Shown piece by piece: positions 19,533 to 41,620 of a DNA stretch of 64,000 nucleotides. Each line of letters begins with the position of its first letter. Positions within the stretch are counted from its first letter, which is position 1. The translations under genes and the position numbers were made by a program. This DNA is from Antarctobacter sediminis (lineage in GTDB: Bacteria; Pseudomonadota; Alphaproteobacteria; Rhodobacterales; Rhodobacteraceae). A model generated the notes under the pieces. The model was not told the origin of the DNA, made no database searches, and saw only the letters and a program-made list of their open reading frames with translations. Where the stretch lies: NCBI RefSeq assembly GCF_019218285.1, contig NZ_JAHUZG010000003.1, positions 248,001-312,000 of the forward strand, read 5' to 3'.

Positions 19533-20828
19533 TCAGAGGCCGGGGTAGATGGGGAAGCGCTGGCAGAGGGCTTCGACCTCGGCGCGGACCTTGGCCTCGA
19601 CCTCGGCGTTGCCCTCTTCGCCATTGGCGGCCAGCCCGTCGACCACCTCGATGATCCAGTCGGCGATCTGGCGGAACTCGGCCTCGCCAAAGCCGCGCGT
19701 CGTGCCCGCGGGCGAGCCAAGACGGATGCCCGAGGTCACCGTCGGCTTTTCGGGATCGAAGGGCACGCCGTTCTTGTTGCAGGTGATATGCGCCCGCCCA
19801 AGCGCCTTTTCGGTGGCATTGCCCTTGACGCCCTTGGGCCGCAGGTCAACCAGCACCACATGCGTGTCGGTGCCATGGGTGACCGTGTCCAGACCGCCCT
19901 TGATCAGCTGGTCCGACAGCGCCTGCGCGTTGTTCACCACGTTCTTGATATAGGTCTTGAACTCGGGGCGCAGCGCCTCGCCGAAGGCCACCGCCTTGCC
20001 GGCGATCACATGCATCAGAGGGCCGCCCTGAATGCCGGGGAAGATCGCCGAATTCACTTTCTTGGCGATATCTTCATCATTGGTGAGGATCATGCCGCCA
20101 CGCGGACCGCGCAGGGTCTTGTGCGTGGTGGTGGTGGCCACATGGGCATGCGGGAAGGGGCTGGGATGTTCGCCCGCGGCCACCAGACCGGCGAAATGCG
20201 CCATGTCCACGTGCAGATATGCGCCGACCATGTCGGCGATCTGCCGCATGCGGGCGAAATCGATCTGGCGGGGGATGGCCGATCCGCCGGCGATGATCAG
20301 CTTGGGCTGGTGTTCCTTGGCCAGCGCCTCGACCTGGTCGTAATCCAGCATGTTGTCCTGCTGGCGCACGCCGTATTGCACGGCGTTGAACCACTTGCCG
20401 GACTGGTTCGGCCGCGCGCCGTGGGTCAGGTGGCCGCCGGCATCCAGGCTCATGCCCAGGATGGTGTCGCCGGGTTTCAGCAGCGCCTGATAGACGCCCT
20501 GGTTGGCTTGGCTGCCCGAGTTCGGCTGCACATTGGCATAGTCGCAGTTGAACAGCTGTCTGGCGCGCTCGATGGCAAGGTTTTCGGCCACGTCGACGAA
20601 CTGGCAGCCGCCATAATAGCGCCGGCCGGGATAGCCCTCGGCGTATTTGTTCGTCATGACCGAGCCCTGCGCCTCCATCACCGCGCGGGAGACGATGTTC
20701 TCGGAGGCGATCAGCTCGATCTCGTCACGCTGACGGCCAAGCTCGCCCGTGATCGAGGCGAAAACTTCGGGATCGCGCTGCGCCAGTGTTTCGGTGAAAA
20801 ACCCGTCCGGTCGGTGCGTCACATTCAT
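19533..20828 (-). CDS. glyA: Serine hydroxymethyltransferase
   Basis: 431 residues, full length. Substrate and PLP signatures are clear: [19 protein letters not shown] near residues 38-56, [11 protein letters not shown] near 205, and [13 protein letters not shown] with the PLP Lys at about 237. It joins glycine and 5,10-methylene-THF to make serine, the C1 entry step of the serine cycle, and in the reverse direction feeds folate C1. It lies 21 bp downstream of ppc at the end of the serine-cycle operon, and a strong terminator follows it. Whether the genome has a second housekeeping glyA cannot be seen here. Confidence 0.96.
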
Positions 20829-20849: not shown

Positions 20850-23483
20850 TCAGCCGGTCCAGCCAAGACCGGCGGAAATGCAGTTCATGCTTTGCATCAA
20901 CTGGATGCGGTGGCGGTTGCCATCCTCGCGGCGCACCTGCGCCAGAAGGTGAACCTGCGCCTCATGGGCCGAGCGCAAAGCCGCCTCGTGGCGGGAGATC
21001 CGCGCGACCGCGTTGGGAAAGCGGCTGCCCAGCGGCGTGCCGGTCAGGCGTTCGATCGCGGTGACGGACCGCGCGTGCTCCTCACGGACCAGCGCAAAGA
21101 TCGCCTCGGCCGCGGTGCGATCCTCAACCAGCCCGGCGTAAAGTTCGGCAATGTCCAACCGCACAAGCATCAGCGATTTTTCCACTTCGTCGACGCAGAG
21201 GCGGAACAGCGGCAGGTCGTGCATCGTCTTGTCCAGCGCGGCATCGCCCCCGGCACCCCGGATGCTGCGGAAATCCTGCACGGCCTGACCAAACCCATAC
21301 CAGCTGCTGATCATGTGGCGGTTCTGGGTCCAAGCAAAAACCCAGGGGATCGCCCGCAGATCCGACAGGGATGCGGCACCGAACCGTCGTGCCGGGCGCG
21401 AACCGATTTTCAGCAGCGCCAGTTCGTTCACCGGACTGGCCTGATTGAAATAAGGCAGGAAAGACGGGTGTTGCAGCAGGGTCTGATAGGTCGTCTGGCT
21501 GAGACTGGACAGGGTTTCCATCACGTCCTCGGCCTCGGGGTCGACGGTCTCAAAGGCCGGTGCGGTGCTGTGGCGCAACACCGACGAGGCCAACAGTTCC
21601 AACTGTGCCGCCGCCGTGCCCGTGTTGGCGTATTTCGCCGTCACGACCTCGCCTTGTTCGGTCAGGCGCAGCGTGCCGTTCAGCGTACCGCGCGGTTGCG
21701 CGGCAATGGCACGATCGGTGGGCGCGCCGCCCCGGCTGACCGACCCGCCGCGCCCGTGAAAAAAGACCGGCCGCGCGCCCTGCCCCGCGATGGCACGGGT
21801 GATCGCCCGTTGCGCGCGGTCCAGCGTCCAACTGGAACAGAGGAAACCGCCGTCCTTGTTGCTGTCCGAATAGCCCAGCATGATCTCCAGCCGCCCGCCG
21901 CGGTCCTTCATGCTGCGCGCGGCCAGCGGGATCGACAGGACATCCCGCAGAATGGAAGGGGCGGCCCGCAGGTCCTCGATGGTTTCGAACAGCGGCACAA
22001 CCTTCAGCGACAGACGTTCCGCCCCGAACCCGGCATAGCGCGCCAGAAGAAGCACTGCCAAAAGGTCGTCGGCAGAGCGTGTCATCGACAGGATAAAAGG
22101 TCCGATGGCCTCTGGGTCCGGCCCGTCATGCACTTCGCGGATCAGATGCAGCAGGGCCATCAGTTCCGCCGCCTCATCCCCCAGATGCGCGTTGTCGACA
22201 AAGGGCAAGGCAGGTTGGCCGATCTCCCGCCGCAGGCGGGCCGACCAGTCGGCGGACAGCGCCTCGGGCGAGGTATCGACGGCGTTCCAAACGGCCTCGA
22301 GCGTGCGTGTTACCACGTCCGAGTTCTGGCGGATGTCCAGCGTGTGCCCCCGGAAACCAAACGTACTGGCCTGCCAGCGCAGCGGGCGGATCAACTGCTG
22401 CGCAAGCTGAGTGGCGTCAATGGCCTCCAGCGCGGCCTCAACCGTCTGCAAGTCAGCAAGAAAGCCCGAAACGTGGCGATAGCCGCCCGCCGCGATGCAT
22501 TGGCGGATCGCAGTCCCCGCCTGCCGAAAGATCTCGTTCGGATTGCGGCGGGCGCAGAGGGCCGGATCGCTGCTGCGGGTCTCGACGATCTGCGCCAGCG
22601 CATCCCGGTGCGGACGCGGCACATCCACGATCTTTTCCGAAACACTGAGCCGCGGAATGACCCTGTCCAGCGCCTGCACATATTCCTCGGCGATCATCTG
22701 GCGCGAACGGTCCAGCGCCATGCGCGTGACCTTGGCGGTCACATTGGGATTGCCGTCACGGTCGCCACCGATCCATGAATGGAACCGGATACAGCAATGG
22801 TCACGGTCTGGCCGTCCCAGAACCGCGCTGACCGCGTCGTGATAACGTTCGAACAGACGGGGCACCGCCTCGAACAGGCTGGTGCGGTAAAATTGCAGGC
22901 CCCAATCGATCTCGGAATCCAGACTGGGCCGCTCCATCCGCAGCTCCCCGGTCATCCAGAGCAGGTCGATCTCCATCTCCAGCGTGTCTTCCAGTCGGGA
23001 GATTTCGCGCGGGGACCAGCGCATCGTTTCGAACAGGACCAGCGTGCGATAGATGCGGCGATGGATTTCCATGACCGACACACGCTTGGCCTCTGTCGGG
23101 TGCGCGGTGATCGTCGGGCCAACGGATAATTGGCCCTCGGACAGCAAGCGTTCCATCGTCGCGCGCTGATCCTCGGGGCAATCGGTCAGCGCCTTGAGAA
23201 AACCGCCCTCGACCGGGTCGCCGTCCTGTTCGGCCTGACGACCCATGCGGATCGTCACGTTTTCATCCATGATCTGCTGGAGGTGAAACCAGATCGTGCT
23301 GGCCTGCAAATGGTCGGCGAAATCAGAGGCGTCCCAATGGGTGCCGCCCTGTTGGACTGCCTGCGCCACATGAGGCGCGCGGCGGTGGAGAACCTTCAGC
23401 CACGCCCCGCGCAGGCGGCGATACACGTCATCTGCATAACTGTCCGGGGACGCGATTCCTGCGGGTTCTGCCACCATCTGCAT
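20850..23483 (-). CDS. ppc: Phosphoenolpyruvate carboxylase
   Basis: 877 residues from the ATG that overlaps the hprA stop by one base (TGATG). Catalytic motifs are intact: TAHPTEAKR with His at about 128, GYSDSNKDGG near 580, FHGRGGSVSRGG near 625, and a C-terminal Gly as in other family members (ending LGWTG). It carboxylates PEP with bicarbonate to oxaloacetate, the CO2-fixing step of the serine cycle. Placement directly between hprA and glyA, in an operon with mtkAB and sgaA, marks it as the assimilation enzyme. Overlapping stop and start imply translational coupling. Confidence 0.96.
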   Translation of the reverse strand: MQMVAEPAGIASPDSYADDVYRRLRGAWLKVLHRRAPHVAQAVQQGGTHWDASDFADHLQASTIWFHLQQIMDENVTIRMGRQAEQDGDPVEGGFLKALTDCPEDQRATMERLLSEGQLSVGPTITAHPTEAKRVSVMEIHRRIYRTLVLFETMRWSPREISRLEDTLEMEIDLLWMTGELRMERPSLDSEIDWGLQFYRTSLFEAVPRLFERYHDAVSAVLGRPDRDHCCIRFHSWIGGDRDGNPNVTAKVTRMALDRSRQMIAEEYVQALDRVIPRLSVSEKIVDVPRPHRDALAQIVETRSSDPALCARRNPNEIFRQAGTAIRQCIAAGGYRHVSGFLADLQTVEAALEAIDATQLAQQLIRPLRWQASTFGFRGHTLDIRQNSDVVTRTLEAVWNAVDTSPEALSADWSARLRREIGQPALPFVDNAHLGDEAAELMALLHLIREVHDGPDPEAIGPFILSMTRSADDLLAVLLLARYAGFGAERLSLKVVPLFETIEDLRAAPSILRDVLSIPLAARSMKDRGGRLEIMLGYSDSNKDGGFLCSSWTLDRAQRAITRAIAGQGARPVFFHGRGGSVSRGGAPTDRAIAAQPRGTLNGTLRLTEQGEVVTAKYANTGTAAAQLELLASSVLRHSTAPAFETVDPEAEDVMETLSSLSQTTYQTLLQHPSFLPYFNQASPVNELALLKIGSRPARRFGAASLSDLRAIPWVFAWTQNRHMISSWYGFGQAVQDFRSIRGAGGDAALDKTMHDLPLFRLCVDEVEKSLMLVRLDIAELYAGLVEDRTAAEAIFALVREEHARSVTAIERLTGTPLGSRFPNAVARISRHEAALRSAHEAQVHLLAQVRREDGNRHRIQLMQSMNCISAGLGWTG

Positions 23484-24475
23484 CACGCCACCCGATCGTT
23501 GGGCGCCCGGCCCTCGAAAAAGTCGACAAGGTTGCTCAGCACCCGGCGCCCCATGGCGGTGCGGGTTTCCTCGGTCGCGCTGCCAAGATGCGGCAACATC
23601 ACGAGGTTGTCGCATTCCAACAGGATCGGCGCGATCTTGGGTTCACCGTCGAAAACGTCCAACGCCGCGCCGCCGATGCATTCGAACATCAATGCCTGCG
23701 CCAGCGCGTGTTCGTCGATCACCTCGCCCCGCGCGGTATTGATCAGGAAGGCCCCCGGTTTCATCAGGTCCAGCCGGCGCGAGTTGATCAGGTGGCGGTT
23801 GGCCGCCCCGCCCGGGCAATGCAACGAAACAAAGTCGCATTGCGGCAGCAGATCCTCGATCGTGTCGACCTGCGTGGCGTTGTAACGGTCCAGCACGTCC
23901 TGAGCGATGCGCGACCGGTTCTGGACGAGGATCTTCATGCCAAAGCCGAAATGCGCCCGCTGCGCGATGGCCTGACCGATGCGGCCAAAGCCCACGATGC
24001 CCAGCACCTTGCCCGAAACCTTGGATCCCACCAGATGGGTCGGCCGCCAGCCGGTCCACTGACCGGCGCGCAATTCGCGCTCGCCCTCGCCCGCCCGGCG
24101 AGCCACCATCAGCATCAGCGTCATCGCAAGATCAGCGGTGCATTCCGACAGCACATCCGGCGTGTTCGTCACCGTGATGCCCAGCCGTTCGGCCGCGCCC
24201 GTGTCGATATGGCTGAAACCGACGCCGTAGTTGGCCAACAGGCGCGTGCGCGCCTCTGGCACATCCATCGCCTCGGCACCCAGCCCGTCGGTGACGGTGG
24301 GCAGGATGGCGTCAAACCGGGTGAGAGCGTCGCGGAATTCCGCGGCGCTCATCGGTTTGTCCTCGACATTGAACACGGTGTCGAAACGCTCGGCCAGTTC
24401 GGCCTCGACCGTCTGGGGCCAGCGGCGCGTGACAAGCACGCGCGGCCGGTTGTTCAGGATCGCGGGGGCGTTCAT
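23483..24475 (-). CDS. hprA: Hydroxypyruvate reductase (D-glycerate dehydrogenase)
   Basis: 330 residues from the ATG overlapping the mtkB stop (TGATG); a GTG one codon earlier is an alternative. D-2-hydroxyacid dehydrogenase family: NAD-binding GFGRIGQA near residues 150-157, catalytic Arg in NTARGEVID near 235, and the His of LPHLGSATEETR near 287 with the Glu between them. In the serine cycle it reduces hydroxypyruvate, made by SgaA, to D-glycerate. NAD or NADP preference is not obvious from the fold motif alone. The operon position between mtkB and ppc supports the function rather than a general formate or glyoxylate reductase. Confidence 0.9.
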   Translation of the reverse strand: MNAPAILNNRPRVLVTRRWPQTVEAELAERFDTVFNVEDKPMSAAEFRDALTRFDAILPTVTDGLGAEAMDVPEARTRLLANYGVGFSHIDTGAAERLGITVTNTPDVLSECTADLAMTLMLMVARRAGEGERELRAGQWTGWRPTHLVGSKVSGKVLGIVGFGRIGQAIAQRAHFGFGMKILVQNRSRIAQDVLDRYNATQVDTIEDLLPQCDFVSLHCPGGAANRHLINSRRLDLMKPGAFLINTARGEVIDEHALAQALMFECIGGAALDVFDGEPKIAPILLECDNLVMLPHLGSATEETRTAMGRRVLSNLVDFFEGRAPNDRVA

Positions 24476-28060: not shown

Positions 28061-28687
28061 ATGAGGCAGGAACAGATCGACATCATGCTGGGGGACGGCA
28101 ATCCGCTGGTCCTTTCCGCCATGTCCGAGGTTTTTGAACGTGACCCCCGATTCTCGCTTGTGGCGACCAGCGCGACCGCCGAAGGGTTCCTTGGCATGGT
28201 GATGCGTGTTCCGGTCAAGGTCTGCGTCATCGACTGGAACATCCCGGCCCTTGGCGCGGAAAAGCTGATCGAAGTCCTGCGCGCGCAGGAAAAGGCGCCG
28301 CGCATCGTGGTCTATGGCCATGACACCGACGCCGCCGTTCCGCGCCAGGCGATGGCCTCGGGCGCGGCGGCATTTGTCTCACGCGCAGCCCATATCGATT
28401 CCCTCGTGCAGACCTGCATCGACGTGGCGGCAGGCAAAATGGTCTTTCCCTATCTCGACATTCGCGACCTGCGCACGGACCCAATCAGCACATTGTCCCG
28501 CAAGGAACGCGCCCTGCTTGATGCGCTGGCCGAAGGGCTGACCAACAAGCAGCTTGCCGCGCGATTGGACATTTCGACCAACACGGTAAAGTTCCACCTG
28601 TCCAACATTTTCGACAAACTCTCGGTCAAGAACCGGGCGCAGGCGATTGCGCATTTCTATGCGTCAAAGGCGAAAAGCGGCAGTTGA
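28061..28687 (+). CDS. LuxR/NarL-type response regulator, likely serine-cycle regulator
   Basis: 208 residues, ATG after GGGAGGTAAC. Residues 1-120 form a receiver-like domain with the phospho-acceptor candidate Asp58 in CVIDWN. The acidic pair near residue 12 is reduced to a single Asp, and the usual Lys before the last helix is replaced (FVSRAA), so classical phosphorylation is doubtful. Residues about 143-205 are a LuxR helix-turn-helix (LSRKERALLDALAEG...STNTVKFHLSNIFDKL). No histidine kinase is nearby. Its place between the divergent sgaA operon and mcl suggests it controls both. Methylobacterium uses a LysR-type regulator (QscR) instead. Confidence 0.85.
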   Translation: MRQEQIDIMLGDGNPLVLSAMSEVFERDPRFSLVATSATAEGFLGMVMRVPVKVCVIDWNIPALGAEKLIEVLRAQEKAPRIVVYGHDTDAAVPRQAMASGAAAFVSRAAHIDSLVQTCIDVAAGKMVFPYLDIRDLRTDPISTLSRKERALLDALAEGLTNKQLAARLDISTNTVKFHLSNIFDKLSVKNRAQAIAHFYASKAKSGS

Positions 28688-28725
28688 GCGCCCGTTCGGT
28701 GTGCATCGGCATGCCGAAAAATTTA

Positions 28726-28750
28726 TTGACAGGAATATTTTTTTCCCAAA
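28726..28750 (+). promoter_or_regulatory. Possible mcl promoter
   Basis: A perfect TTGACA at 28726-28731 lies 67 bp upstream of the mcl start. No convincing -10 box sits 17 bp downstream (AACACA is the closest), so an activator may be needed. TTTCCCAAA at 28742-28750 overlaps the spacer and is shared with the formate dehydrogenase promoter region. Confidence 0.35.
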
Positions 28751-28797
28751 CACAAATAGGGGTCCGACGTCACATCCTTTCAGAAAGGACCCTATCC

Positions 28798-29775
28798 ATG
28801 TCTTTCCACGCCATCGAACAGGCGCCCGCGCGCCTCAACCGTTCTGAACTCGCCGTCCCCGGTTCGCAGCCGCAAATGTTTGAAAAGGCGGCGCAATCCG
28901 AAGTCGACGTGATCTTCCTCGACCTCGAGGACGCGGTTGCGCCCGACGAAAAGGAACAGGCCCGCAAGAATATCATCAAGGCCCTGAACGAAATCGACTG
29001 GGGCACCAAGACCATGTCGATCCGCATCAACGGGCTGGACACGCATTACATGTATCGCGACGTGGTCGACGTGGTCGAACAGGCCGGCGAACGTCTGGAC
29101 CTGATCATGATCCCCAAGGTCGGCACCGCCGCCGATGTCTATGCCGTCGATATGATGGTGACCCAGATCGAAGACGCCAAGGGTCTGAAAAAGCGCATCG
29201 GTTTCGAACACATCATCGAAACCGCGCTAGGGATGCAGAACGTGTCCGAAATCGCCGCCGCGTCCAAGCGGAACGAAAGCCTGCACTTCGGTGTCGCCGA
29301 TTATGCCGCCTCGACCCGGGCGCGCACCACGATCATCGGTGGCGTGAATCCCGATTACGCCGTGCTGACCGATCCCGATGCAAATGGGGGCCGTGACACC
29401 CATTGGGGCGACATGTGGCACTATGCGCTGGCCCGCATGGTTGTGGCGGCACGCGCCAGCGGCCTGCGCCCAATCGACGGCCCCTTCGGTGATTTTCAGG
29501 ATCCCGACGGCTATCGCGCCGCCGCCAAACGCGCCGCCGTTCTGGGCTGCGAGGGCAAATGGGCCATCCACCCCAGCCAGGTCGCCTTGGCGAACGAAGT
29601 CATGTCGCCGTCGCAGGCGGAAATCGAAAAGGCCGGCCGCATCCTGACCGCCATGGCCGAGGCCGAAGCCGCCGGCAAGGGCGCGGTTTCGCTGGACGGC
29701 CGCCTGATCGACTACGCCTCGATCCGGCAGGCCGAAGTTCTGGTCGAAAAGGCCCGTCAGATTGCAGCCGAATAA
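28798..29775 (+). CDS. mcl: L-malyl-CoA/beta-methylmalyl-CoA lyase
   Basis: 325 residues from the ATG at 28798, behind AAAGGACC; upstream in-frame sequence is the intergenic promoter region. HpcH/CitE-type TIM barrel with FLDLEDAVAPDEKEQAR near residues 42-58, an Arg/Glu/Asp metal and CoA site, FGVADYAASTRAR near 182 and a C-terminal lid WAIHPSQV near 260. It matches the Rhodobacter Mcl1 type in length and motifs. It splits malyl-CoA into acetyl-CoA and glyoxylate, closing the serine cycle, and in this group also acts on beta-methylmalyl-CoA in the ethylmalonyl-CoA pathway. It overlaps the glycerate kinase gene by 14 bp. Confidence 0.93.
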   Translation: MSFHAIEQAPARLNRSELAVPGSQPQMFEKAAQSEVDVIFLDLEDAVAPDEKEQARKNIIKALNEIDWGTKTMSIRINGLDTHYMYRDVVDVVEQAGERLDLIMIPKVGTAADVYAVDMMVTQIEDAKGLKKRIGFEHIIETALGMQNVSEIAAASKRNESLHFGVADYAASTRARTTIIGGVNPDYAVLTDPDANGGRDTHWGDMWHYALARMVVAARASGLRPIDGPFGDFQDPDGYRAAAKRAAVLGCEGKWAIHPSQVALANEVMSPSQAEIEKAGRILTAMAEAEAAGKGAVSLDGRLIDYASIRQAEVLVEKARQIAAE

Positions 29776-31036
29776 CACTGCTTCGTTGAAGGACGACGCG
29801 GCCCGGGCATTCCGGGCCGCCATCCGACGCGCCGATCCGGCGCTGGCCATGCGCGATTGCCTGGGGTCGTCCCCCCTGCCCCGGGCCGCGCATGGCCACC
29901 GAACCATCGTGCTGGCGCTAGGCAAGGCCGCGCCCGCCATGTTGCGCGCCGTCCTCCCGCGCATCACCGGCCCGCGGGTGATGATCTGTGTCACTCACCG
30001 CGAAAACACCGAACAGGTGCCGGGGGCCGAGATTTTTCGCGCCGGTCATCCGGTCCCTGACAGTGTCGGCGCTGCCGGGGCCGCGCGCATTCAGGCGGTT
30101 CTGAAAACCGCCGAAGCCGGTGACGTGGTCATTGCGCTGATCTCGGGCGGTGGATCGGCCCTGCTGCCCGCGCCGCCGGAAGGCGTCAGCCTAGAAGACA
30201 AACAGACGCTGAACCGCATTCTGCTGGACAGTGGTCTGGACATCGTGGCGATGAACCTGATCCGTCAACAGGTGTCGCAACTCAAGGGTGGCGGATTGGT
30301 TCGGCTTGCCGCGCCTGCGCCAGTGACCGGCTATATCCTTTCCGACGTGATCGGCGACAACCTGCGCGCCATCGCCAGCGGACCAACCGTTGCCCCGATC
30401 GGCACCGCCGAAGAGGCGCGCCGGCTGTTGCAGGACAAGGGCCTGCTGACCCGTTTGCCCGAAAGCATTCAGCGCCACCTGCGCAACGCGCCCCGCGTCG
30501 TTTCAACGGTGCAGGCCAGCAATCAGCTGATCGGCGGCAACCGCGAAAGCGTCGAGGCCGCGGCAGAGGCCCTGCGGCCGGCCTACGCCACGCAGATCAT
30601 CGACGACCCGCTGATCGGCAATGTGAACGAGGCCGCCTGCACCATCTTTCGCGCCCTCCGCGAGGCAAGGTCCGGGGGACGCCCCCGCGCCATTCTTTGG
30701 GGCGGAGAAACCACCGTCCAGGTGCGGGGCAATGGCATGGGCGGGCGCAATCAGGAACTGGCGCTGCGCGTGGCCGCGCTGGCCGATGCCGATCCTGTCG
30801 CCGCACCTTGGGTTTTTCTGTCCGGTGGCACCGACGGGCGCGACGGGCCAACCGACGCGGCGGGCGCATCCGTGGATCAAGGCTCGCTCGAGCGCATCCG
30901 CGCCAAGGGTCAGGCTCCGACAACACTGCTGGACCGCAATGACAGCAATGCCGCGCTGCGTTTGTCCGGGGATCTGCTGATCACCGGGGCAACGGGCACG
31001 AATGTCGCGGACGTTCAGATCCTGCTGATCGGCTGA
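29762..31036 (+). CDS. Glycerate 2-kinase (MOFRL family)
   Basis: 424 residues counted from a TTG at 29762 that lies inside the mcl 3-prime end; a TTG at 29785 is the alternative, and no ATG is available before the conserved N-terminus. DUF4147 domain with LALGKAAPAML near residue 56, ISGGGSALLPAP near 127 and QLKGGGLVRLA near 170, then the C-terminal MOFRL motif (GGRNQELALRVA, FLSGGTDGRDGPTDAAG). It phosphorylates D-glycerate to 2-phosphoglycerate, linking HprA to enolase and PPC. It is the TtuD/GckA type. Expression probably depends on coupling to mcl. Confidence 0.9.
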   Translation: MQPNNTASLKDDAARAFRAAIRRADPALAMRDCLGSSPLPRAAHGHRTIVLALGKAAPAMLRAVLPRITGPRVMICVTHRENTEQVPGAEIFRAGHPVPDSVGAAGAARIQAVLKTAEAGDVVIALISGGGSALLPAPPEGVSLEDKQTLNRILLDSGLDIVAMNLIRQQVSQLKGGGLVRLAAPAPVTGYILSDVIGDNLRAIASGPTVAPIGTAEEARRLLQDKGLLTRLPESIQRHLRNAPRVVSTVQASNQLIGGNRESVEAAAEALRPAYATQIIDDPLIGNVNEAACTIFRALREARSGGRPRAILWGGETTVQVRGNGMGGRNQELALRVAALADADPVAAPWVFLSGGTDGRDGPTDAAGASVDQGSLERIRAKGQAPTTLLDRNDSNAALRLSGDLLITGATGTNVADVQILLIG

Positions 31037-31039
31037 GGG

Positions 31040-31495
31040 TTATTCCCGACGCAAGGCTCCGTGGTCGCGCAGAACGCCGCCGCTCTGCGCCTCTTCGCCC
31101 TTGCGCCAATCCGGAACATCGTTGACCAGCATATGCGCCGCCCGTTGCAGGGTGGCGCGCATCTTGTCCACCGCGGGACCGGACAGGCCCACATCGTTCA
31201 ACGCGCGGTCGAAGGTCTGCAACCACAGTTCGGCATCCGCTGTGCGGATCGGGATATGCGCGTGGATCTCACGCAGGTTCATGTGGCCATTGCGTTCCCG
31301 ATAATAGGCCCGCCCGCCCAGAAACCCGCTGAGGAACTCGAACTGCGCCTGCCGCGTGTGCGACAGGCCATGCCCCCGGAAATGCAGACGGTGCAATTCA
31401 TGCACCGCCGGATCCGTTTCCATAAGGTCATAGAACTGCTCGACGAGGTCTCGTAGAGCGGTTTCCCCACCGATGTCTTCCAATGCACTTGTCAT
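31040..31495 (-). CDS. Group II truncated haemoglobin
   Basis: 151 residues. The 2-on-2 globin fold is suggested by GGETALRDLVEQFYDLM near residues 9-25 (B10 Tyr), the short loop GRAYYRERNGHMNLREIHAHIPI near 61-83 with the proximal His, and ELWLQTFDRAL near 88 with the Trp (G8) that defines group II. Such proteins bind O2 or NO and protect against nitrosative or oxidative stress. It ends head-on against the glycerate kinase, with only 3 bp between stops, and lies 44 bp downstream of the DUF1989-GcvT fusion on the same strand, so the two may be cotranscribed. Confidence 0.88.
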   Translation of the reverse strand: MTSALEDIGGETALRDLVEQFYDLMETDPAVHELHRLHFRGHGLSHTRQAQFEFLSGFLGGRAYYRERNGHMNLREIHAHIPIRTADAELWLQTFDRALNDVGLSGPAVDKMRATLQRAAHMLVNDVPDWRKGEEAQSGGVLRDHGALRRE

Positions 31496-31539: not shown

Positions 31540-33912
31540 TCAAGACCGCGGTTTTTCCTTCTTGGGATCATAGGCCGCCAGATCCGCCCGGATCGTGGCG
31601 GGCAGGCGTTTCTGATGCCCGTCCAGCTTGCCGATTTCCACCTGCGTACCCGGTTCGCAATGGGTCACGTCGATCCGCGCCATGGCGATGTTCTTGCCGA
31701 GGATCGGGGAACGCATGGACGAGGTGATCTCGCCAATCTGGGCCCGGCCGATATGGACACAATCGCCGTGGCCGACCTCGACGTTGCTGTCGATGTCCAA
31801 CCCAACCAGCTTGCGCATCGGGTTTTCCTTGCGGCGGATCAGCGCTTCGCGTCCGATGAAATCATCCGGTTTGGACTTTAGTGGCACGGTAAAGCCGACA
31901 CCGGCCTCGAACGGGTCCGTCTGGTCCGAAAAATCATAGCCGGCAAAAATCAGCCCGGCTTCGATCCGCACCATGTCCAGCGCCTCCAGCCCCATGGGGC
32001 GGATGCCGTGCGCCTGACCGGCCTCCCATACCGCGTCAAAGACGTCGCCGGCGTGTTTCGGGTGGCAAAAGATCTCGTACCCCAGTTCACCGGTATAGCC
32101 GGTGCGGCTGACCACGACCGGGATTCCCTGATCGTCGCCAATGCGCGCGGGCGCAAAACGGAACCATGCCAATTCGTCGAAATTCGGCTGGTGGGGGGCG
32201 GTCCAGATGATCTTTTTCAGCAGATCGCGGCTTTCCGGGCCCTGAACGGCAATATTGTGCTGCATGTCGGTCGAAGACCGGATCAGCACCTTCAGCCCCA
32301 GTTCTTCGGCCTTTTCGCGCAGCCACTCACCGCCGTAGTCCGACCCGCCGATCCAGCGGAAGTTATCTTTGCCCAGTCGGAACACAGTGCCGTCGTCAAT
32401 CATGCCGCCATGCGGATAGCACATCGCCGTATAGACGACGCCGCCCACCGGCAGGGTCTTCATATTGCGGGTAAAGGCATATTGGCACAGCGCCTCGGAA
32501 TCCGGGCCTGTGATCTCGAACTTGCGCAGGGCGGACAGGTCCAGCACGACGCATTTCTCGCGGCAGGCGTGGTATTCCTCGATCGGGCCGGCGCTGGACA
32601 TGCAGTTGGCCAGCCAAAAGCCGTTGTATTCGATGAAGTTGTCGGTGAACCGGTCGAACCGGTCGTGAAAGCCTGTCTGTTTGGTCATCTTCGGTTCCGC
32701 ATCAGGTGTGGGCCGGTACGCAACTGCGCGTTGAAAGGTTTCCTTGCCGCTGTAGGTGCGCACATGGATGTCGGTCGGTTTCCAGCCATTCGCGGCCGAG
32801 GTATCGTCCGGGCAGGCAGAGCTGACGCAGACCAGATCGGTCAGCGCGCGCAGCAGCACGTAATCGCCGGGGCGCGACCAGGGTTCGTCGGAATACATGA
32901 CCCCATGTTCGTCCAACCCGGTGTTGAAGAAGAAGTTGATCGCCATCCAGCCCTTGCGGCCGGTCACTCCATGCGGCGCCAGCGCGCCGTTGAAGTTGTC
33001 GGAACAGTTGATGTGCCCGGGATAGCCGATGTCGTCGTAGTATTTTGCAGAACAGGCCAGGGCAAAGGCATCGTGTCGCCCGCAGGTGTCCTGGATCACC
33101 TCGACCAGCGGCAGCATGTCCTGATCGTAGTATTTCGCATGCAGTCCCGGCATGGGATAGGCATGTTCCATCAGCGTGCGGGTTGTGGTCACGTCCAGCG
33201 CGTGTTCGATCCCCTTATCCAGCTTGCGGGCCGAAAAGCACTGGAAATCCGTGCATTGGCGTCCGTCTACGTCAAGGATCTGGATATAGTCGCCGGCCTT
33301 TACGAAATAGGCTTCGGCGGTCGAGGAATGCACCCGCACATCCGCCACCGGATCGGCCAGAGGGTCGGGCAACTCGAACTTGGGCAGGCGCTTGATGGTG
33401 GCCCGGCGGATATAGACGGTCAGCGGGGTCGCCGTGTCCTGCGCCTCGAAATCCATGATGCCGCCGGGGGCCGCGATGATCGCAATGCCTTCGCCGGTGG
33501 CGGTAAAGCTTTCCGTCGTGCGCGCCGGAGTGCTGGCTTCGAACAGGTGTAGGGCCTGCGCCCCGGACAGGTCCAGCCCGCGCGCCTCGATCCCCATACG
33601 CAAGCTGCGCAGTGACTGGTCCGGCGTCGTCAACAGCGCCTGCAATCCCTTGGCAGGCCCCTGCCCCGATGCGCCGATCAGGCCGGTATCAAATGTGCCA
33701 TCGGGCCGCGCGCAGACGATTTCGCAGCGCTGTCCGCCCTCGGTGTTCTCGACTTCCAGCCGATCGCCTTCCTCCAGCCGGACAAGGATCGCGCCCGCGC
33801 CTTCGACGACGTAACGCTCGGTTCCCGGAGGCATCGAGAAGACACGCGGCTCGAAGATTCCGCTGGGGCGCGGCGGCCCCGGCACGACATTCGGATACCT
33901 GGAATCAAGCAA
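31540..33912 (-). CDS. DUF1989-type module fused to a GcvT/DmdA-like folate-dependent C1 transferase
   Basis: 790 residues, function unassigned. Residues about 30-175 resemble a partial DUF1989 repeat (EGDRLEVENTEGGQRCE). Residues 180-400 are a complete DUF1989 domain: GRQCTDFQC at 217-225, DTCGRHD at 275-281, NCSDNFNGALAPHG at 302-315, NFFFNT at 326-331 and SSACPDD at 364-370, keeping the conserved Cys and His set. Residues 420-780 are an aminomethyltransferase domain with GGMIDD at 502-507 (folate-activating Asp), SRTGYTGELGYE at 602-613 and a C-terminal barrel. DUF1989 proteins include carboxyguanidine deiminase subunits; GcvT/DmdA proteins move a C1 group to THF. I infer cleavage or deamination of a small nitrogen compound with C1 transfer to THF. 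Confidence 0.75.
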   Translation of the reverse strand: MLDSRYPNVVPGPPRPSGIFEPRVFSMPPGTERYVVEGAGAILVRLEEGDRLEVENTEGGQRCEIVCARPDGTFDTGLIGASGQGPAKGLQALLTTPDQSLRSLRMGIEARGLDLSGAQALHLFEASTPARTTESFTATGEGIAIIAAPGGIMDFEAQDTATPLTVYIRRATIKRLPKFELPDPLADPVADVRVHSSTAEAYFVKAGDYIQILDVDGRQCTDFQCFSARKLDKGIEHALDVTTTRTLMEHAYPMPGLHAKYYDQDMLPLVEVIQDTCGRHDAFALACSAKYYDDIGYPGHINCSDNFNGALAPHGVTGRKGWMAINFFFNTGLDEHGVMYSDEPWSRPGDYVLLRALTDLVCVSSACPDDTSAANGWKPTDIHVRTYSGKETFQRAVAYRPTPDAEPKMTKQTGFHDRFDRFTDNFIEYNGFWLANCMSSAGPIEEYHACREKCVVLDLSALRKFEITGPDSEALCQYAFTRNMKTLPVGGVVYTAMCYPHGGMIDDGTVFRLGKDNFRWIGGSDYGGEWLREKAEELGLKVLIRSSTDMQHNIAVQGPESRDLLKKIIWTAPHQPNFDELAWFRFAPARIGDDQGIPVVVSRTGYTGELGYEIFCHPKHAGDVFDAVWEAGQAHGIRPMGLEALDMVRIEAGLIFAGYDFSDQTDPFEAGVGFTVPLKSKPDDFIGREALIRRKENPMRKLVGLDIDSNVEVGHGDCVHIGRAQIGEITSSMRSPILGKNIAMARIDVTHCEPGTQVEIGKLDGHQKRLPATIRADLAAYDPKKEKPRS

Positions 33913-34033: not shown

Positions 34034-34879
34034 GTGAATTCATTGTTTTTAGGTTTGATAGCAGCCGTTTGCTGGGGACTGCATGATATTGCCGTGCGTT
34101 ATCTTAGCCGGTCTGTCGCGCTGCTTGCCGCCCTGTTGGTGGCCCTGTTTTCCGGTCTGGTATTTCAGGGGGTTGTGATTCTTGTTCGCGGCGAATGGCT
34201 TTTGCCCACCGGCCCCGCGCTTTGGTATGCCGTGGCCGCCGGTGTGGCCTTTCTGGTCGCCAGTGTCGGTCTTTATTATGCCTTTCACCGGGGGCCCGTG
34301 CGGCTGGTCAGCCCGATTATCGGGGCCTTTCCGATCCTGTCGCTGATCTTTGCCGCGCTGGACGGATCGCCCATCACCACGGATCAACTGGCCACCGTTG
34401 GCCTTGTGATCGCCGCAGTCGCCGTTGTCGCCATCCTTTCGGACCCGTCCGAAGGAGACATTCCCCCGCGCGGTCCAACGGTCGTGTTTTCGCTGATTTC
34501 CGCCGTGGGCTATGCAACCACTTTTCGCCTGGGGCAACTGGCTGCCGAAACCGGTGGCGAATGGCAAAGCAGCTTTGCCACGCGCCTGACGGCCTTGCTG
34601 CTGCTTGGCGCGGTGCTGTTGGTGATGCGCAAGGATATTCGCGTGGGCCGCAAGGCAATCCTGCCGCTGCTCACCATGGGTGTGCTGGACGGGATTGCGC
34701 TTTTGTCGGTGATTTCCGCGGCCTCGATGGCGCAACCGGAATTCGCAGCGGTTGCAGCCTCGATCTTTGGCCTGTTCACGATCCTGCTGGCCCGTGTCTT
34801 TCTGGACGAACAGATGCGATTGGCCCAATGGGCCGGGTGCATCGTTGCCTTTGCCGGGATCGGGTATCTGACCCTGTAA
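34034..34879 (+). CDS. DMT/EamA transporter divergent from the DUF1989-GcvT fusion
   Basis: 281 residues, GTG start six bases after GGGAGGT. Ten hydrophobic segments in the EamA duplication pattern; the second repeat begins near residue 146 (TVVFSLISAVGYATTFRLG). It has no strong motif for a known substrate. It is divergent from the fusion gene across a 121-bp AT-richer promoter region. Uptake or efflux of the fusion enzyme's substrate or product is a reasonable guess. Its 3-prime end faces folD-like gene 34897 with a 17-bp gap. Confidence 0.82.
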   Translation: MNSLFLGLIAAVCWGLHDIAVRYLSRSVALLAALLVALFSGLVFQGVVILVRGEWLLPTGPALWYAVAAGVAFLVASVGLYYAFHRGPVRLVSPIIGAFPILSLIFAALDGSPITTDQLATVGLVIAAVAVVAILSDPSEGDIPPRGPTVVFSLISAVGYATTFRLGQLAAETGGEWQSSFATRLTALLLLGAVLLVMRKDIRVGRKAILPLLTMGVLDGIALLSVISAASMAQPEFAAVAASIFGLFTILLARVFLDEQMRLAQWAGCIVAFAGIGYLTL

Positions 34880-34896: not shown

Positions 34897-35772
34897 CTAG
34901 GCCCGCCACCCCGCCGCCTGCTGGCGTTCATAGGCGCGCATGGCGTTGCGCATCAGGATCGCGACCGTCACCGGACCAACGCCGCCGGGCACGGGCGTGA
35001 TCCATCCGGCAACCTCTTTGACCGCATCGGTATCCACATCGCCGACAATCTCGGTCGAGCCATCGGGCTTGGCGATCTGGTTGATGCCGATGTCGATCAC
35101 CGCCGCACCCGGCTTGACCATGTCGGCACCGATCAGATGCGGCTTGCCCACCGCAACGACGATCACATCCGCCCGGCGTGAGTGCATGGCGACCGAACGC
35201 GTCAGGTGGTGACAGACCGTCACGGTTGCGCCCTCGGCCATCAACATCATGGCCGCCGGTTTGCCGACGATCTCGGAATGGCCGACCATGACGACCTCAA
35301 GGCCCTTCATGTCCAGTCCGGTCTCGCGGATCAGTTCCACCGCCGCTGCCGCCGTACAGGGCGCCATGGCCACGTCATTGTAGACGATATTGCCGATCGA
35401 GGCCGGGTTCATGCCCTCGACATCTTTCAGCGGATGGATCGCGGATTGCAGCGAGCGGACGTTGATATGGCTGGGGACCGGGCGCTGAAGAATGATGCCC
35501 AGCACCTCGGGGTCGTCGTTCATTTCCTGGATCAGCGCCTTGCACTCATCCTGGCTGACTTCGCCGCCCCAGAACTCTTGATCAAAGGGGAGCCCCACCG
35601 CCGCCGCCGCGCGTGCCTGATTGCGGACATAGACCGCCACCTCGGGCACATCGCCAATAGAGATCGACACCAGCTTGCCGATCCGCCCGGCGGAATTGGT
35701 GAGCGACCGCACCTCTGACAAGATGCGGTCCTTGACGGGTTTTCCCAGCAGCAACCGGGGGTCCTGTTTCAC
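34897..35772 (-). CDS. Divergent FolD paralogue lacking the cyclohydrolase lysine
   Basis: 291 residues from the GTG at 35772, which overlaps the upstream folD stop (GTGA). The FolD fold is retained: Tyr48 in VYVRNQ, Gln96 in LQRPVP, Asp117 in LKDVEGM and GGVGPVTVA at the C-terminus. However, the catalytic Lys of the Y-x3-K motif is Gln52, DVDGF has become DVEGM, and the NADP-binding GRSNIVGKP is GHSEIVGKP. Loss of that Lys is known to abolish cyclohydrolase activity in bifunctional enzymes. So it may be a dehydrogenase only, have altered cofactor use, or be regulatory. It follows canonical folD in an operon. Confidence 0.85.
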
Positions 35773-36671
35773 GCCGTCAGCCCCTCGGGCTCCGCCAATC
35801 CATTTGCGCGGCAACATGCGGTCAGCGTGTTGGCGAGCAGGCAGGCGATGGTCATCGGGCCGACGCCGCCGGGGACCGGCGTGATCGCGCCCGCCACAGC
35901 GGCGCAGCTGTCGTAGTGCGCGTCGCCCACGAGGCGGGTCTTGCCCTCACCCTTCTCCGGCGCGTCGATGCGGTTGATGCCCACGTCGATCACCGTTGCG
36001 CCCGGTTTGATCCAGTCGCCCGGCACCATTTCCGGGCGGCCCACGGCGGCCACGACGATATCGGCGCGGCGTACCACTTCGGCCAGATCCTTGGTGCGCG
36101 AATGCGCGATGGTCACGGTGCAGCTATCGCCCAGCAACAGCTGTGCCATCGGTTTGCCCACAATGTTGGAGCGACCGATCACAACCGCGTCCATGCCGGA
36201 CAGGCTGCCGTGATGGTCGCGCAGCATCATCAGGCAGCCCAGCGGGGTGCAGGGCACCATGGATTTCTGCCCGGTGCCCAAAAGCCCCACGTTTGAAATG
36301 TGGAACCCGTCCACATCCTTGGCGGGATCGATCGAGTTGATCACCAGATCCTCGTCCAGGTGACCGGGCAGCGGCAGCTGCACCAGGATGCCATGGACCG
36401 CCGGATCGTTGTTCAGCTTGTCGATCAGTGCCAGCAGGTCGGCCTCCGAGGTGTCGGCCTCCAGCTTGTGCTCGTACGAGTTCATGCCGACCTCGACGGT
36501 CTGCTTGCCCTTCGAACGGACATAGACCTGGCTGGCCGGGTCTTCGCCCACCAGCACCACGGCCAGTCCGGGCGTGATGCCGTTTTGCTCTTTCAGGCGC
36601 GCCACATGGCCCGCCACCTTTTCACGGACCGTGGCCGCAAAGGCCTTGCCGTCGATCACCGTTGCCGTCAT
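35769..36671 (-). CDS. folD: Bifunctional methylene-THF dehydrogenase/methenyl-THF cyclohydrolase
   Basis: 300 residues from the ATG overlapping the chorismate-mutase-like stop (ATGA). Canonical FolD motifs: [11 protein letters not shown] with Tyr50 and Lys54, VQLPLPGH near 97, PAKDVDGF near 119, [11 protein letters not shown] near 165 and [11 protein letters not shown] near 270. It interconverts 10-formyl-, methenyl- and methylene-THF, carrying C1 from Fhs to GlyA. It sits between a chorismate-mutase-like gene and a divergent paralogue of itself, each overlapping by four bases. Confidence 0.94.
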
Positions 36672-36982
36672 CCGTCTACCCCTTCCTTGCCGATCACCCG
36701 CTCTTCGCGCGCGATGACCGTCTCGATCATGATTGTCCACATCGCCTCGGCCAGCTCCGGGTCCAGCCCGCAGGCCTCGGCCCGCGCGCGGACATTGTCC
36801 AGAACCGCCGTCACCCGACGTGGTGCCCGTGCGGCAATGCCTTCGCGCGCCTTCAGATCCGGCGCGCGGTCGGTGTATCGCTCGCGCTCGGCCAGCAGCT
36901 GCACCAGCTCTCGGTCGATCTCGTCTATGCAGACCCGCAGGTCCGCCATGCTCTGGATGTCCCGGGGAGGGGTGCGCGCCAT
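36668..36982 (-). CDS. Chorismate mutase (AroQ/PchB-like) family protein
   Basis: 104 residues from the ATG at 36982; the much longer open frame upstream is antisense overlap with fhs. All-helical AroQ pattern: [26 protein letters not shown] near residues 15-40, a Lys in [28 protein letters not shown] near 50-68, and [11 protein letters not shown] near the end. It resembles the PchB/isochorismate-pyruvate lyase branch. Its presence inside a folate C1 operon is unexpected. It might feed p-aminobenzoate or folate supply indirectly or have drifted to another role; neither is shown. It overlaps folD by 4 bases. Confidence 0.75.
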
Positions 36983-37013
36983 GCCGCTTCTTCTCTGTTC
37001 AAGGACCCGGATA

Positions 37014-37101: not shown

Positions 37102-37134
37102 CACCGCGCGCCGGGTCTTTTCCGACGCGAAGCG

Positions 37135-38811
37135 TCAGAACAGACCTTCGATCTGGCCCGCGTCGTTCAGGCGGATGTTCTCCGCCGACGGCACGCGCGG
37201 CAGGCCCGGCATGGTCATGATCTCGCCGCAGACCACGACGATGAAGCCCGCACCCGCCGAAAGGCGAACTTCGCGCACCGGAACCGAGTGACCCGTCGGC
37301 GCGCCGCGCAGGTTCGGATCGGTCGAGAACGAGTACTGCGTCTTCGCCATGCAGACCGGCAGATCGCCATAGCCCTGCTCTTCCCAGAGCTTGAGCTGAT
37401 CGCGGATCTTCTTGTCCATCAACGCTTCGTCCGCGCGGTAGATGCGCTTGGCAATGGTCTGGATCTTTTCCGCCAGCGGCATTTCGTCGGGGTAGATCGG
37501 CGAGAAGTTCGCCTGACCGGCTTCGGCCACCGCAACCACCTTGCGCGCCAGGTCGGCCGAGCCTTCCGAGCCCAGTTCCCAGTGACGGCTCAGAACCGCC
37601 TCGGCACCGTGGCTGGCGACATATTCCTTGATGGCCGCGATTTCCGCGTCGGTGTCGGTGACAAAGTGGTTGATCGCCACGACAACCGGCACGCCGAAGG
37701 ACTTGAGGTTCTCGATGTGACGGCCAAGGTTCGGGCAGCCCTTCTTGACCGCGTCGACGTTCTCGGCACCAAGGTCCGCCTTGGCCACGCCGCCGTTCAT
37801 CTTCATCGCGCGCACGGTGGCAACGCAGACCACCGCCGAAGGCGCAAGGCCGGCCTTGCGGCACTTGATGTTCATGAACTTCTCGGCACCCAGGTCAGCC
37901 CCAAAGCCCGCCTCGGTCACAACGTAATCGGCCAGTTTCAGCGCCGTCGTGGTGGCGATGACCGAGTTACAGCCATGTGCGATATTGGCGAAGGGACCGC
38001 CGTGCACGAAGGCCGGGTTGTTTTCCAGCGTCTGCACCAGGTTCGGCTGCATCGCGTCCTTGAGCAGGACGGTCATCGCGCCTTCGGCCTTGATGTCGCG
38101 GCAGAAGACCGGGGTGCGGTCGCGGCGGTAGGCCACGATCATGTCGCCCAGACGCTTTTCGAGGTCCTTCAGGTCCTTGGCAAGGCAGAGGATCGCCATG
38201 ACTTCCGAGGCCACGGTGATGTCGAAACCACCTTCGCGCGGGAAACCGTTGGCCACGCCGCCAAGGCTCAGCACCACGTTGCGCAGCGCGCGGTCGTTCA
38301 TGTCGACGACGCGGCGCCACTGGACGCGGCGCAGGTCGATTTCCTGCTCGTTGCCCCAGTAGATGTGGTTGTCGATCATCGCCGACAGCAGCGAATGCGC
38401 CGAGGTGATGGCGTGGAAGTCACCGGTGAAATGGAGGTTCATCTCCTCCATCGGCACGACCTGCGCCATACCGCCCCCGGCCGCGCCACCCTTCATGCCG
38501 AAGTTCGGCCCAAGCGACGCTTCGCGGATGCAGATCATCGCCTTCTTGCCGATGTGGTTCAGACCGTCGCCCAGACCCACGGTGGTGGTGGTCTTGCCTT
38601 CACCCGCCGGTGTCGGGTTGATTGCGGTGACGAGGATCAGCTTGCCGTTCGGACGATCCTGCACCGAGTTGATGAAATCCTGGCTCACCTTCGCCTTGTC
38701 GTGACCGTAAGGCAGCAGGTGTTCAGCCGGAATGCCCAGCCCGTCGCCAATCTCCTGGATCGGCTTCTTCTGCGCGTCGCGCGCGATTTCGATATCCGTT
38801 CTGTAGGCCAT
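37135..38811 (-). CDS. fhs: Formate-tetrahydrofolate ligase
   Basis: 558 residues, usual length. The ATP-binding loop [18 protein letters not shown] lies near residues 67-84, followed by [19 protein letters not shown] near 98-116 and the conserved [13 protein letters not shown] near 275. It uses ATP to join formate to THF, giving 10-formyl-THF, which FolD reduces for GlyA. It lies 31 bp downstream of the formate dehydrogenase alpha gene, so one operon controls whether formate is oxidised or assimilated. Expression of downstream folD genes may be set by hairpins after the stop. Confidence 0.96.
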
Positions 38812-38842: not shown

Positions 38843-41620
38843 TTACTCGGCTGCGGTTTGGGTGATTGCCTCGACCCGCACGGCCGAGAATTTGAATTCC
38901 GGGATCTTGCCGTAGGGGTCGATCGCCGGGTTTGTCAGGACGTTCGCCGCCGCCTCGACATAGGCGAAGGGCACGAACACCATGTCTTCGGACACGGCCC
39001 GGTCAGCGCGGGCCATGATCTCGATGCTGCCCCGCCGGGTGGTCAGGCGGATCATTTCGCCCGGGGCCACGCCAAGCCGACGCAGTGTTTTGGGGTGCAG
39101 CGAACAGTTCGCCTCGGGTTCAACCGCGTCCAGAACGCTGGCGCGGCGGGTCATCGATCCGGTGTGCCAATGTTCCAACTGACGACCGGTGGTCATGATC
39201 ATCGGATAGGTTTCGTCCGGGGCCTCGTCCGGCGGGATCACCGCGGCCGGGGTGAACTTGGCCCGGCCTTCGGGCCGCGGGAAGCCATCGCCAAAGACCA
39301 CAGCCTGCCCCGGATCGGTTTCCGACAGCGACGGATAGGTGACTGTTTCGGTCTTGAGTCGGTCCCATGTGATGTTGTCCAGCGACTTCATCACCAGTTT
39401 CATCTCGTCAAAGACCTGACTGACGTCGGTATAGTCCCACGGCAGGCCAAGGCGCTGACCCAGTTCCACCGTGATCGCCCAGTCCTCGCGCGCCTCACCC
39501 GGAGGGGCCACGGCGGGGCGCACCCGCTGCACCTGCCGGTTGGTGTTGCTGACGGTGCCGTTCTTTTCATACAGCGCCGAGGCCGGCAGGATCACATCCG
39601 CGAAACAGGCCGTTTCGGTCAGGAAGATGTCCTGAACCACAAGATGTTCCAGTTTGGCAAAGGCATCGCGGGCATGTTCCACGTCCGGGTCGGACATGGC
39701 CGGGTTTTCACCCTGAATATACATGCCCTTGATGTTGCCGGCATAAACCTGATCGACGATTTCGGTGACGGTCAGGCCTTTCTTGTTGGACCAGTCCTCG
39801 TCGCGGCCCCAGACACCAAAGATGTCCTCGCGCACTGCGTCGTCCTCGACCGAGCGGTAATCCGGCACGAACATCGGGATCAGACCGGCGTCCGAAGCGC
39901 CCTGCACGTTGTTCTGGCCGCGCAGCGGGTGCAACCCCGTGCCGGGACGACCCACATGACCGGTCATCAGCGCCAGCGAGATCAGGCAGCGCGAATTGTC
40001 GGTGCCGTGAATATGCTGCGACACCCCCATGCCCCAAAAGATCATGCCTGCCTTGGCGCCCGCAAAGGTCCGGGCCACGTCGCGGATGACCTCGGGCGAG
40101 ATGCCGCAAATCGGTTCCATCGCCTCAGGCGTAAAGGCCTTGAGATGTTCCTTCTCGGCCTCCCAGTTTTCGGTGAAGGCCTCGATATATTGCTGGTCGT
40201 ACAGGCCTTCTTCGACGATCACGTGCATGATCGCGTTCAACAGGCTGACGTCCGCGCCCGGACGGAACTGGACCATCTGGTAGGCATGGCGTTTCAGCCC
40301 CTGTCCCCGCGGATCCATCACGATCAGCTTGCCGCCACGCTTGGCGAACTGTTTGAAGTAGGTCGCCGCGACGGGGTGGTTTTCTAGCGGGTTGGCCCCG
40401 ATGATGATCGCCACATCGGCGTTTTCCACCTCGTTGAAGGTGGCGGTCACAGCGCCGGAACCCACGTTTTCAATCAGCGCCGAAACCGATGAGGCATGGC
40501 AAAGCCGCGTGCAGTGGTCGACGTTGTTATGCTTGAAGCCCTGCCGGATCAGTTTCTGGAACAGGTATGCTTCTTCGTTGGTGCATTTGGCCGAGCCGAA
40601 ACCCGCGACCGATTGCCCGCCATGAGCCTGACGCAGCTTGGCAAGGCCACCGGCCGCCGCCTGCATCGCCTCTTCCCACGATGCTTCGCGGAAATGGGTC
40701 ATCAGGTTGCCCGGGTCGACGTTTAGCCCTTTGGCCGGCGCATCCTCGCGGCGGATCAGCGGTTTGGTCAGGCGATGCGGGTGATGAATATAGTCAAAAC
40801 CGAAGCGGCCCTTGACGCAAAGACGTCCTTCGTTCGCCGGGCCGTTGATGCCCTCGACATATTTGACCTTGCCGTCCTTGACCTTGAGCGAGACCTTGCA
40901 GCCGACGCCGCAGAAAGGGCAGACGCTTTCGGTTTCGCTATCGAAATCCTTGCTGTCACCCTGCTGGTTCTCATCCACCACGGTCGACGGCATCAGCGCG
41001 CCGGTCGGGCAGGCCTGAACACATTCACCACAGGCAACGCAGGTCGACGCGCCCATCGGGTCGGCAAAATCGAAGGTCGGGTAGGCGTCATGCCCCCGCC
41101 CCGACATGCCGATGACGTCGTTCACCTGCACTTCGCGGCAGGCCCGCACACACAGGCCGCACTGGATACAGGCATCAAGGTTGACGCTCATTGCCACGTG
41201 GCTGTCATCAAGCAGAGGAATGCGGCCCTCTTCCAGCTTGGGGAAACGGCTGGTGTCGATGCCGTTTTCCTCGGCCATGTCCCAGAGGTGCGAGGATTTG
41301 TCATGCGACTCTTCCCGCTTGGGCTGATCCGCGACAAGCAGTTCCATGACCATCTTGCGGGCGTTTTCGGCGCGCGCCGTGGCGGTCTTGACCACCATCC
41401 CTTCCGAAGGTTCACGGATACACGAGGCCGCAAGCGTGCGCTCGCCCTCGATTTCCACCATGCAGGCGCGGCAGTTGCCGTCCGGGCGATAGCCCGGGGC
41501 CGGCTTGTGACACAGGTGCGGGATCTTCAGCCCGCGACCGTTTGCAACTTCCCAGATGGTCATGCCTTTTTCGGCGGTGACATCCTGGCCATTCAGGTTG
41601 AAGGTGATTGTCTCGCTCAT
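38843..41620 (-). CDS. NAD-dependent formate dehydrogenase, alpha (catalytic) subunit
   Basis: 925 residues; molybdopterin (Mo or W) enzyme of the FdsA/Fdh1A type. Domain order: [2Fe-2S] ferredoxin (C37, C50, C53, C67), a His-ligated NuoG-type cluster near 100-115, two [4Fe-4S] clusters (C151/154/157/161 and C194/197/200/204), a proximal cluster (C234/237/241/268), then the Mo/W-bis-MGD catalytic domain. The active site is Cys374-His375 in TRLCHASS, so a cysteine enzyme and not a selenoprotein. It oxidises formate to CO2; electrons pass to the beta subunit and NAD. The ATG lies 3 bp after the beta-subunit stop. Confidence 0.94.

Follow-up and report, generated by a model that had tools for sequence, protein, structure and literature searches.

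Assignment of a DUF1989–GcvT fusion gene of Antarctobacter sediminis to the trimethylamine N-oxide demethylases, and the globin gene beside it

Among folate and serine-cycle genes of Antarctobacter sediminis lies a gene for a single protein with DUF1989 modules in front of a GcvT domain, which raises the question of what reaction such a fusion may catalyse. The preliminary description of the window (the whole stretch of 64,000 nucleotides that was analysed) took it for a new enzyme, whose DUF1989 half would deaminate or hydrolyse a small nitrogen compound and whose GcvT half would capture the released carbon on tetrahydrofolate (THF). Our analysis leads to a different answer, as the product is almost certainly the trimethylamine N-oxide (TMAO) demethylase Tdm, the function of this copy being assigned from its relatives. 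Tdm has already been described and its structure solved, so the gene encodes a known enzyme and not a new one.

Domain architecture and relationship to Tdm

The open reading frame begins with a TTG codon, and this start is supported because the homologous gene on a Ponticoccus alexandrii plasmid is annotated with an identical length of 2373 nt. In the product Pfam called DUF1989 at residues 194–361 (159.7 bits for the whole protein), GCV_T at 423–674 (211.6 bits) and the GcvT C-terminal barrel GCV_T_C at 700–782 (58.2 bits), and it called no domain in the first ~190 residues. Using hhalign, a profile of residues 20–188 could be aligned to a profile of the DUF1989 domain over 137 columns (probability 94.9, E 4.2e-8, 15% identity), both profiles consisting of 18 sequences drawn from the same homologues. 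A third, DUF1989-like domain free of cysteines is described for Tdm in PMC12560246, and the N-terminus of our protein (~20–188) is likewise a degenerate DUF1989-like copy without the metal cysteines, with a probably structural role. The order expected of Tdm, DUF1989-like, DUF1989 and GcvT, is present in the 790-residue protein. It had been read correctly from the start as a partial plus a complete DUF1989 module followed by a full GcvT domain, and the motifs DTCGRHD (275), NCSDNF (302), SSACPDD (364) and GGMIDD (502) lie exactly where they had been placed.

The assignment to Tdm is carried by curated families and by deposited structures. The protein passes the NCBIfam equivalog NF053776 'trimethylamine N-oxide demethylase' with 1202.5 bits against a cut-off of 1100 over residues 24–789, and a phmmer search against the PDB sequences matched residues 6–790 to 9q59 and 9q5l (1193.9 bits) and to 9q5a (1186.8 bits), all three deposited under the name trimethylamine N-oxide demethylase. 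In the phmmer alignments 9q5a differs from 9q59 in having alanine where our protein has Asp222 and Asp369, and its depositors apparently probed the residues matching these two. A 90% identical Ponticoccus protein carries the annotation 'trimethylamine-oxide aldolase Tdm', and the homologue from Ruegeria pomeroyi SZCCDBG043 (L008) is 88% identical (696/789). For R. pomeroyi DSS-3, Spo1562 serves as Tdm in PMC5520151, and SPO1562 is listed as tdm in PMC9870897. An AlphaFold2 model built from 35 sequences (mean pLDDT 78.0, pTM 0.74) agrees with Tdm by domains only: Foldseek placed GcvT structures at the top (1yx2, E 6.7e-35) and also hit the DUF1989 structures 3siy and 3oru (E 2e-15 to 4e-15) and 3di4 (4e-12) with a probability of 1.00, and no Tdm entry was among the best 50 matches listed from a library reaching to April 2026. 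Compared with the known Tdm proteins (Methylocella silvestris; R. pomeroyi Spo1562; PDB 9q59, 9q5l, 9q5a; NF053776), we found near full-length homology, the same three-domain order, the published zinc cysteines and histidine, the retained GcvT aspartate, the arginine-to-leucine exchange described below and a genome with trimethylamine (TMA) pathway genes; nothing material sets our protein apart from them beyond sequence divergence.

The families sharing only one half of the fusion were rejected by their scores. The urea-amidolyase-associated proteins UAAP1 and UAAP2, which we take to be the carboxyguanidine deiminase subunits CgdA/B, have the DUF1989 fold in common with Tdm; their models span ~200–230 positions, cover its DUF1989 part only and remain far under their cut-offs (TIGR03424, 85.4 against 284.7 bits; TIGR03425, 46.9 against 205.95), and their reaction differs from that of Tdm. 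GcvT, DmdA, dimethylglycine dehydrogenase/oxidase and DmmD share the GcvT fold and the folate-site aspartate but match the GcvT half of Tdm only. For GcvT of the glycine cleavage system (236.3 against 300, 203.6 against 235.85 and 133 against 459 bits) and for DmdA (146.1 against 410 bits) the cut-offs were not reached.

These comparisons bear directly on the proposed new enzyme, to which we now give hardly any probability. The DUF1989 fold that the protein shares with the urea-amidolyase-associated proteins of TIGR03424 and the conserved folate aspartate Asp507 speak for a deaminating or hydrolysing half that works with a THF-dependent one, as a carboxyguanidine deiminase might, but both UAAP scores are far too low, and the Tdm model and structures fit over nearly the full length. 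Moreover, PMC12560246 reports that the isolated N-terminal and GcvT parts of Tdm are inactive, that the full-length enzyme forms formaldehyde from TMAO in equimolar amounts and that THF is not needed, so that for the characterised member of the family the proposal is already refuted. Since the activity of Tdm is known and TMAO demethylation falls outside the chemistry that had been proposed, the claim of a new enzyme ends here. Very unlikely, too, is a Tdm-family enzyme whose main substrate has shifted to another tertiary amine N-oxide or a methylated amine. Such a shift finds some support in a divergent branch of seven Tdm-like proteins (41–48% identical, 1031–1055 bits and so below 1100), which in three of the 39 family genomes with a match occurs alongside canonical Tdm. 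Against it, our protein lies outside this branch and above the NF053776 cut-off, it is 88% identical to the R. pomeroyi protein, and its own genome contains TMA/TMAO pathway genes.

Tdm-length matches (E <= 1e-200) were present in 34 of the 385 genomes of the class, 29 of them above the cut-off, and in 39 of the 149 genomes of the family, 35 of which have a match above it. On plasmids, 139 records gave a match at E <= 1e-100, with 95 from Rhizobium. The divergent Tdm-like proteins (L136:7044-9422, L139:7854-10193, L137, L138 and L140–L142) keep the metal residues, and at the two of these seven loci that were scanned the gene lies together with a LacI regulator and an ABC transporter of the betaine/choline type. 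This branch may represent a second TMAO system or act on another substrate.

Metal and folate sites and the predicted reaction

We transferred the numbering of PMC12560246 by letter match and PDB alignment. That paper gives C263, C279 and C343 as zinc ligands and H276, D346 and A344 as residues of the iron site, and states that D198 had earlier been proposed as a bridge; an offset of 24 turns these into C287, C303, C367, H300, D370, Pro368 and D222. Of the seven letters all fit except Ala344, which corresponds to Pro368 in our protein. Conservation was followed in an 80-row alignment (the window protein and 79 of the 80 loci kept out of 506 relatives, one locus with an in-frame stop being left out) and in a 30-row alignment (the window protein and 29 loci from other Alphaproteobacteria, 49–78% identical). 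D222, C287, H300, C303, C367, D369, D370 and D507 are invariant in all 80 rows, and D222, C287, H300, C303, C367, D506 and D507 in all 30 rows of the wider set. The zinc cysteines, His300 and Asp507 are nowhere lost in either set, a loss that would have counted against the earlier proposal.

The acidic residues near the metals, D222, D369 and D370, are all present in our protein. In the wider set D369 is found in 25 of 30 rows (Cys in five) and D370 in 28 (Ala in two), and because of these exchanges the identity of the acidic metal ligand is uncertain. The position of DTCGRHD as a DUF1989 motif is right, but its Cys277 stands outside the published zinc ligands according to the transferred numbering and is replaced by valine in 20 of the 80 close rows, with 17 Cys and 13 Val in the wider set. 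For the folate site, the aspartate of GGMIDD pointed out earlier is the invariant Asp507, and the THF-contacting arginine of E. coli GcvT ('GLGARD') aligns with Leu645, which is leucine in 80/80 and 30/30 rows. PMC12560246 describes a similar replacement of a THF-contacting GcvT arginine by leucine in Tdm (L618); the offset of 24 would put L618 at Leu642, while the sequence alignment puts the GcvT arginine at Leu645.

PMC12560246 reports that Tdm binds Fe2+ and Zn2+ and turns TMAO into dimethylamine and formaldehyde in a 1:1 ratio with or without O2, that the separated N-terminal and GcvT parts are inactive, and that THF is dispensable, its presence reducing the free formaldehyde slightly and its use being probably vestigial in the view of the authors. 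We infer that the copy in the window acts like the characterised Tdm. TMAO would accordingly be split into equal amounts of dimethylamine and formaldehyde, with the oxygen coming from the N-oxide and not from O2. Zinc would be held in the DUF1989 domain by Cys287, Cys303 and Cys367, and Fe2+ would lie nearby, bound by His300 together with an acidic residue that is either Asp370 or Asp222, a point on which publications disagree. The probable catalytic centre would contain both metals. The GcvT domain, with the folate-site Asp507 kept and the THF-contacting arginine lost, would be required for the assembled enzyme and probably helps in the disposal of formaldehyde. The formaldehyde would then be taken up by the THF and serine-cycle enzymes encoded nearby, and the dimethylamine would enter the Dmm and GmaS/Mgs route, whose genes lie in another part of the genome. 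Of what had been proposed before, the GcvT fold holds, and so does the idea that a small N-methyl compound gives up a C1 unit. Capture on THF may occur, since Asp507 is invariant, but at most in part and not as a requirement. A deaminating or hydrolysing DUF1989 half is not part of Tdm chemistry, as this half holds the Zn/Fe site needed for TMAO demethylation (PMC12560246).

Neighbouring genes and the methylamine pathway

The genes around tdm are listed in Table 1. Several of them score below the NCBIfam cut-offs, and their names were helped by the collinear annotated Ponticoccus locus. The fhs gene, two folD-type genes, glyA and the serine cycle are present as had been described.

Table 1: Genes at the tdm locus (positions in the window)
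Gene or product	Position	Strand	Basis or remark
glyA, serine hydroxymethyltransferase	19533..20828	-	635.3 bits, cut-off 335
Phosphoenolpyruvate carboxylase	20850..23615	-	below NCBIfam cut-off
Malate--CoA ligase alpha	24475-25413	-	named via succinate--CoA ligase alpha models
Malate--CoA ligase beta	25365-26564	-	passes PRK14046
CitE/malyl-CoA lyase-like CoA ester lyase, serine cycle	28684..29775	+	below NCBIfam cut-offs
Glycerate 2-kinase-like, serine cycle	29762..31036	+	below NCBIfam cut-off; Ponticoccus counterpart annotated DUF4147
Truncated haemoglobin, glbO-like	31040..31495	-	Pfam Bac_globin 81.2 bits
tdm, trimethylamine N-oxide demethylase (= trimethylamine-oxide aldolase), 790 aa	31540..33912	-	domain profiles, NCBIfam, PDB
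EamA-family transporter	34034..34879	+	divergent from tdm
FolD-like methylene-THF dehydrogenase/cyclohydrolase	34897..35817	-	below cut-offs of the 25 listed of 30 matched NCBIfam models
folD	35769..36740	-	522.7 bits, cut-off 396
fhs (ftfL), formate--THF ligase	37135..38811	-	935.6 bits, cut-off 652
Formate dehydrogenase alpha subunit	38843..41620	-	741 bits, cut-off 666.25

An EamA-family gene is divergent from tdm in 59 of the 71 loci with more than 1.2 kb upstream, and this transporter may have a link to methylated amines. The two adjoining folD-type genes differ from each other, and the copy nearer to tdm may be functionally specialised. The reading frame 36668-37864 (minus strand) matches chorismate mutase type II in its C-terminal part (residues 309–387), and its upstream part shares DNA with fhs, read in a different frame. 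What is truly encoded between folD and fhs is probably a short protein resembling chorismate mutase. In each of the 39 loci whose sequence extends more than 9 kb from tdm in both directions, one or more C1 or methylamine genes are present, counted with our own gene list among the loci closest to the query, and no homologue outside a C1 context was found among them.

The genome (5.12 Mb, 21 contigs) encodes one Tdm above the NF053776 cut-off; the 18 other matches stay below it, all but the last in the GcvT half. It also holds a second DUF1989 protein (G000:C3:739032). As expected for a Tdm host, we could detect the TMA/TMAO pathway genes: tmm makes TMAO, and the dmm-type, mgs-like and gmaS-type genes use dimethylamine and methylamine. 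On the same contig, ~170 kb from tdm, a protein is encoded that is 76% identical to a pAMI6 oxidoreductase annotated only as 'NAD(P)/FAD-dependent oxidoreductase', which we take as Tmm1 (tmm1) by its place relative to dmm and tdm in PMC4543880. Close by, within a 20-kb stretch of the same contig, we found HODM (dmmA-type), GcvT (dmmD-type) and Amt genes, a type III glutamine synthetase (GmaS type) above its cut-off and two Mgs-like proteins, whose domains are GXGXG and glutamate synthase. An APC permease, which adjoins dmm on pAMI6, had no match in the genome at E <= 1e-20, an absence that would carry weight only alongside a positive control.

The setting of tdm with fhs, folD and the serine cycle matches the published 'methylotrophy island', into which, according to PMC4543880, the serine-cycle, TMA/TMAO and N-methylglutamate genes are joined in Paracoccus sp. 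N5 and Roseobacters. Like this island, our genome combines tdm with serine-cycle, THF and methylamine genes, but tdm is not clustered with the pathway genes: ~170 kb of a single contig separate the part with the serine cycle and tdm from that with tmm, dmm and gmaS, in which dmm and gmaS are further from tdm than tmm. In R. pomeroyi, tdm is induced by methylated amines and activated by TmaR (PMC13390433).

A truncated haemoglobin gene next to tdm

Only 44 nt downstream of tdm follows a globin gene, and the two probably share a transcript. Its product matched globins in the PDB, including truncated and 2-on-2 haemoglobins, and its relatives, as annotated and published, place it in group II. Of 81 loci (80 from genomes, and pAMI6), 61 have a globin gene downstream of tdm in the same orientation, a count that overstates its frequency because the 80 loci are those closest to the query; it lies within 1 kb of tdm in 59 of the 78 loci with enough sequence. 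On pAMI6 a 'group II truncated hemoglobin' is annotated 10 nt after tdm. The gene table of the Ponticoccus plasmid, which is incomplete, lists no globin in the interval from tdm to the DUF4147 gene, and among 29 class loci with short flanks a globin was found in one only (L111, of the same family).

An even draw of 149 family genomes gave a globin in nine and tdm in 39. Eight of the nine globin genomes have tdm (Fisher p 9e-5, uncorrected for relatedness) and the ninth has a piece of tdm at a contig end. Of the nine globin genes, six are next to tdm and one is next to gmaS; another comes after a folD fragment, and the neighbours of the remaining one matched none of the C1/methylamine queries. 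Against a tight link, 31 of the 39 tdm genomes have no globin match at E <= 1e-6. Tyr22, His38, Gln51 and Trp91 are each present in 62 of 62 globins, and the same four residues are given for the Roseobacter denitrificans globin in PMC4319818, where the surrounding glutamate synthase, glutamine synthetase and ammonium transporter genes are taken as nitrogen and stress genes. At the loci examined by us the comparable genes resemble those for Mgs, GmaS and Amt in the methylamine pathway. Our search found no open-access paper tying a truncated haemoglobin to Tdm, and the word 'globin' is absent from the main texts, as distinct from figures and supplements, of the TMA-pathway papers PMC5520151, PMC4543880 and PMC13390433.

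We tentatively suggest, at somewhat less than even confidence, that in Rhodobacterales the globin serves TMAO demethylation as a dedicated partner and is not a general globin of oxidative stress. Such a partner might, for example, keep the Fe2+ site of Tdm reduced or clear away reactive by-products such as peroxide.

TMAO occurs widely in the sea as an osmolyte and nitrogen source, many marine bacteria break it down with Tdm, and Tdm carries out its aerobic turnover to dimethylamine. Naming the gene tdm removes a false lead towards a new enzyme and assigns the window to the trimethylamine pathway known from Roseobacters. If the globin is indeed a partner of Tdm, the glutamate synthase, glutamine synthetase and ammonium transporter neighbours of the R. 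denitrificans globin would be methylamine-pathway genes as well.
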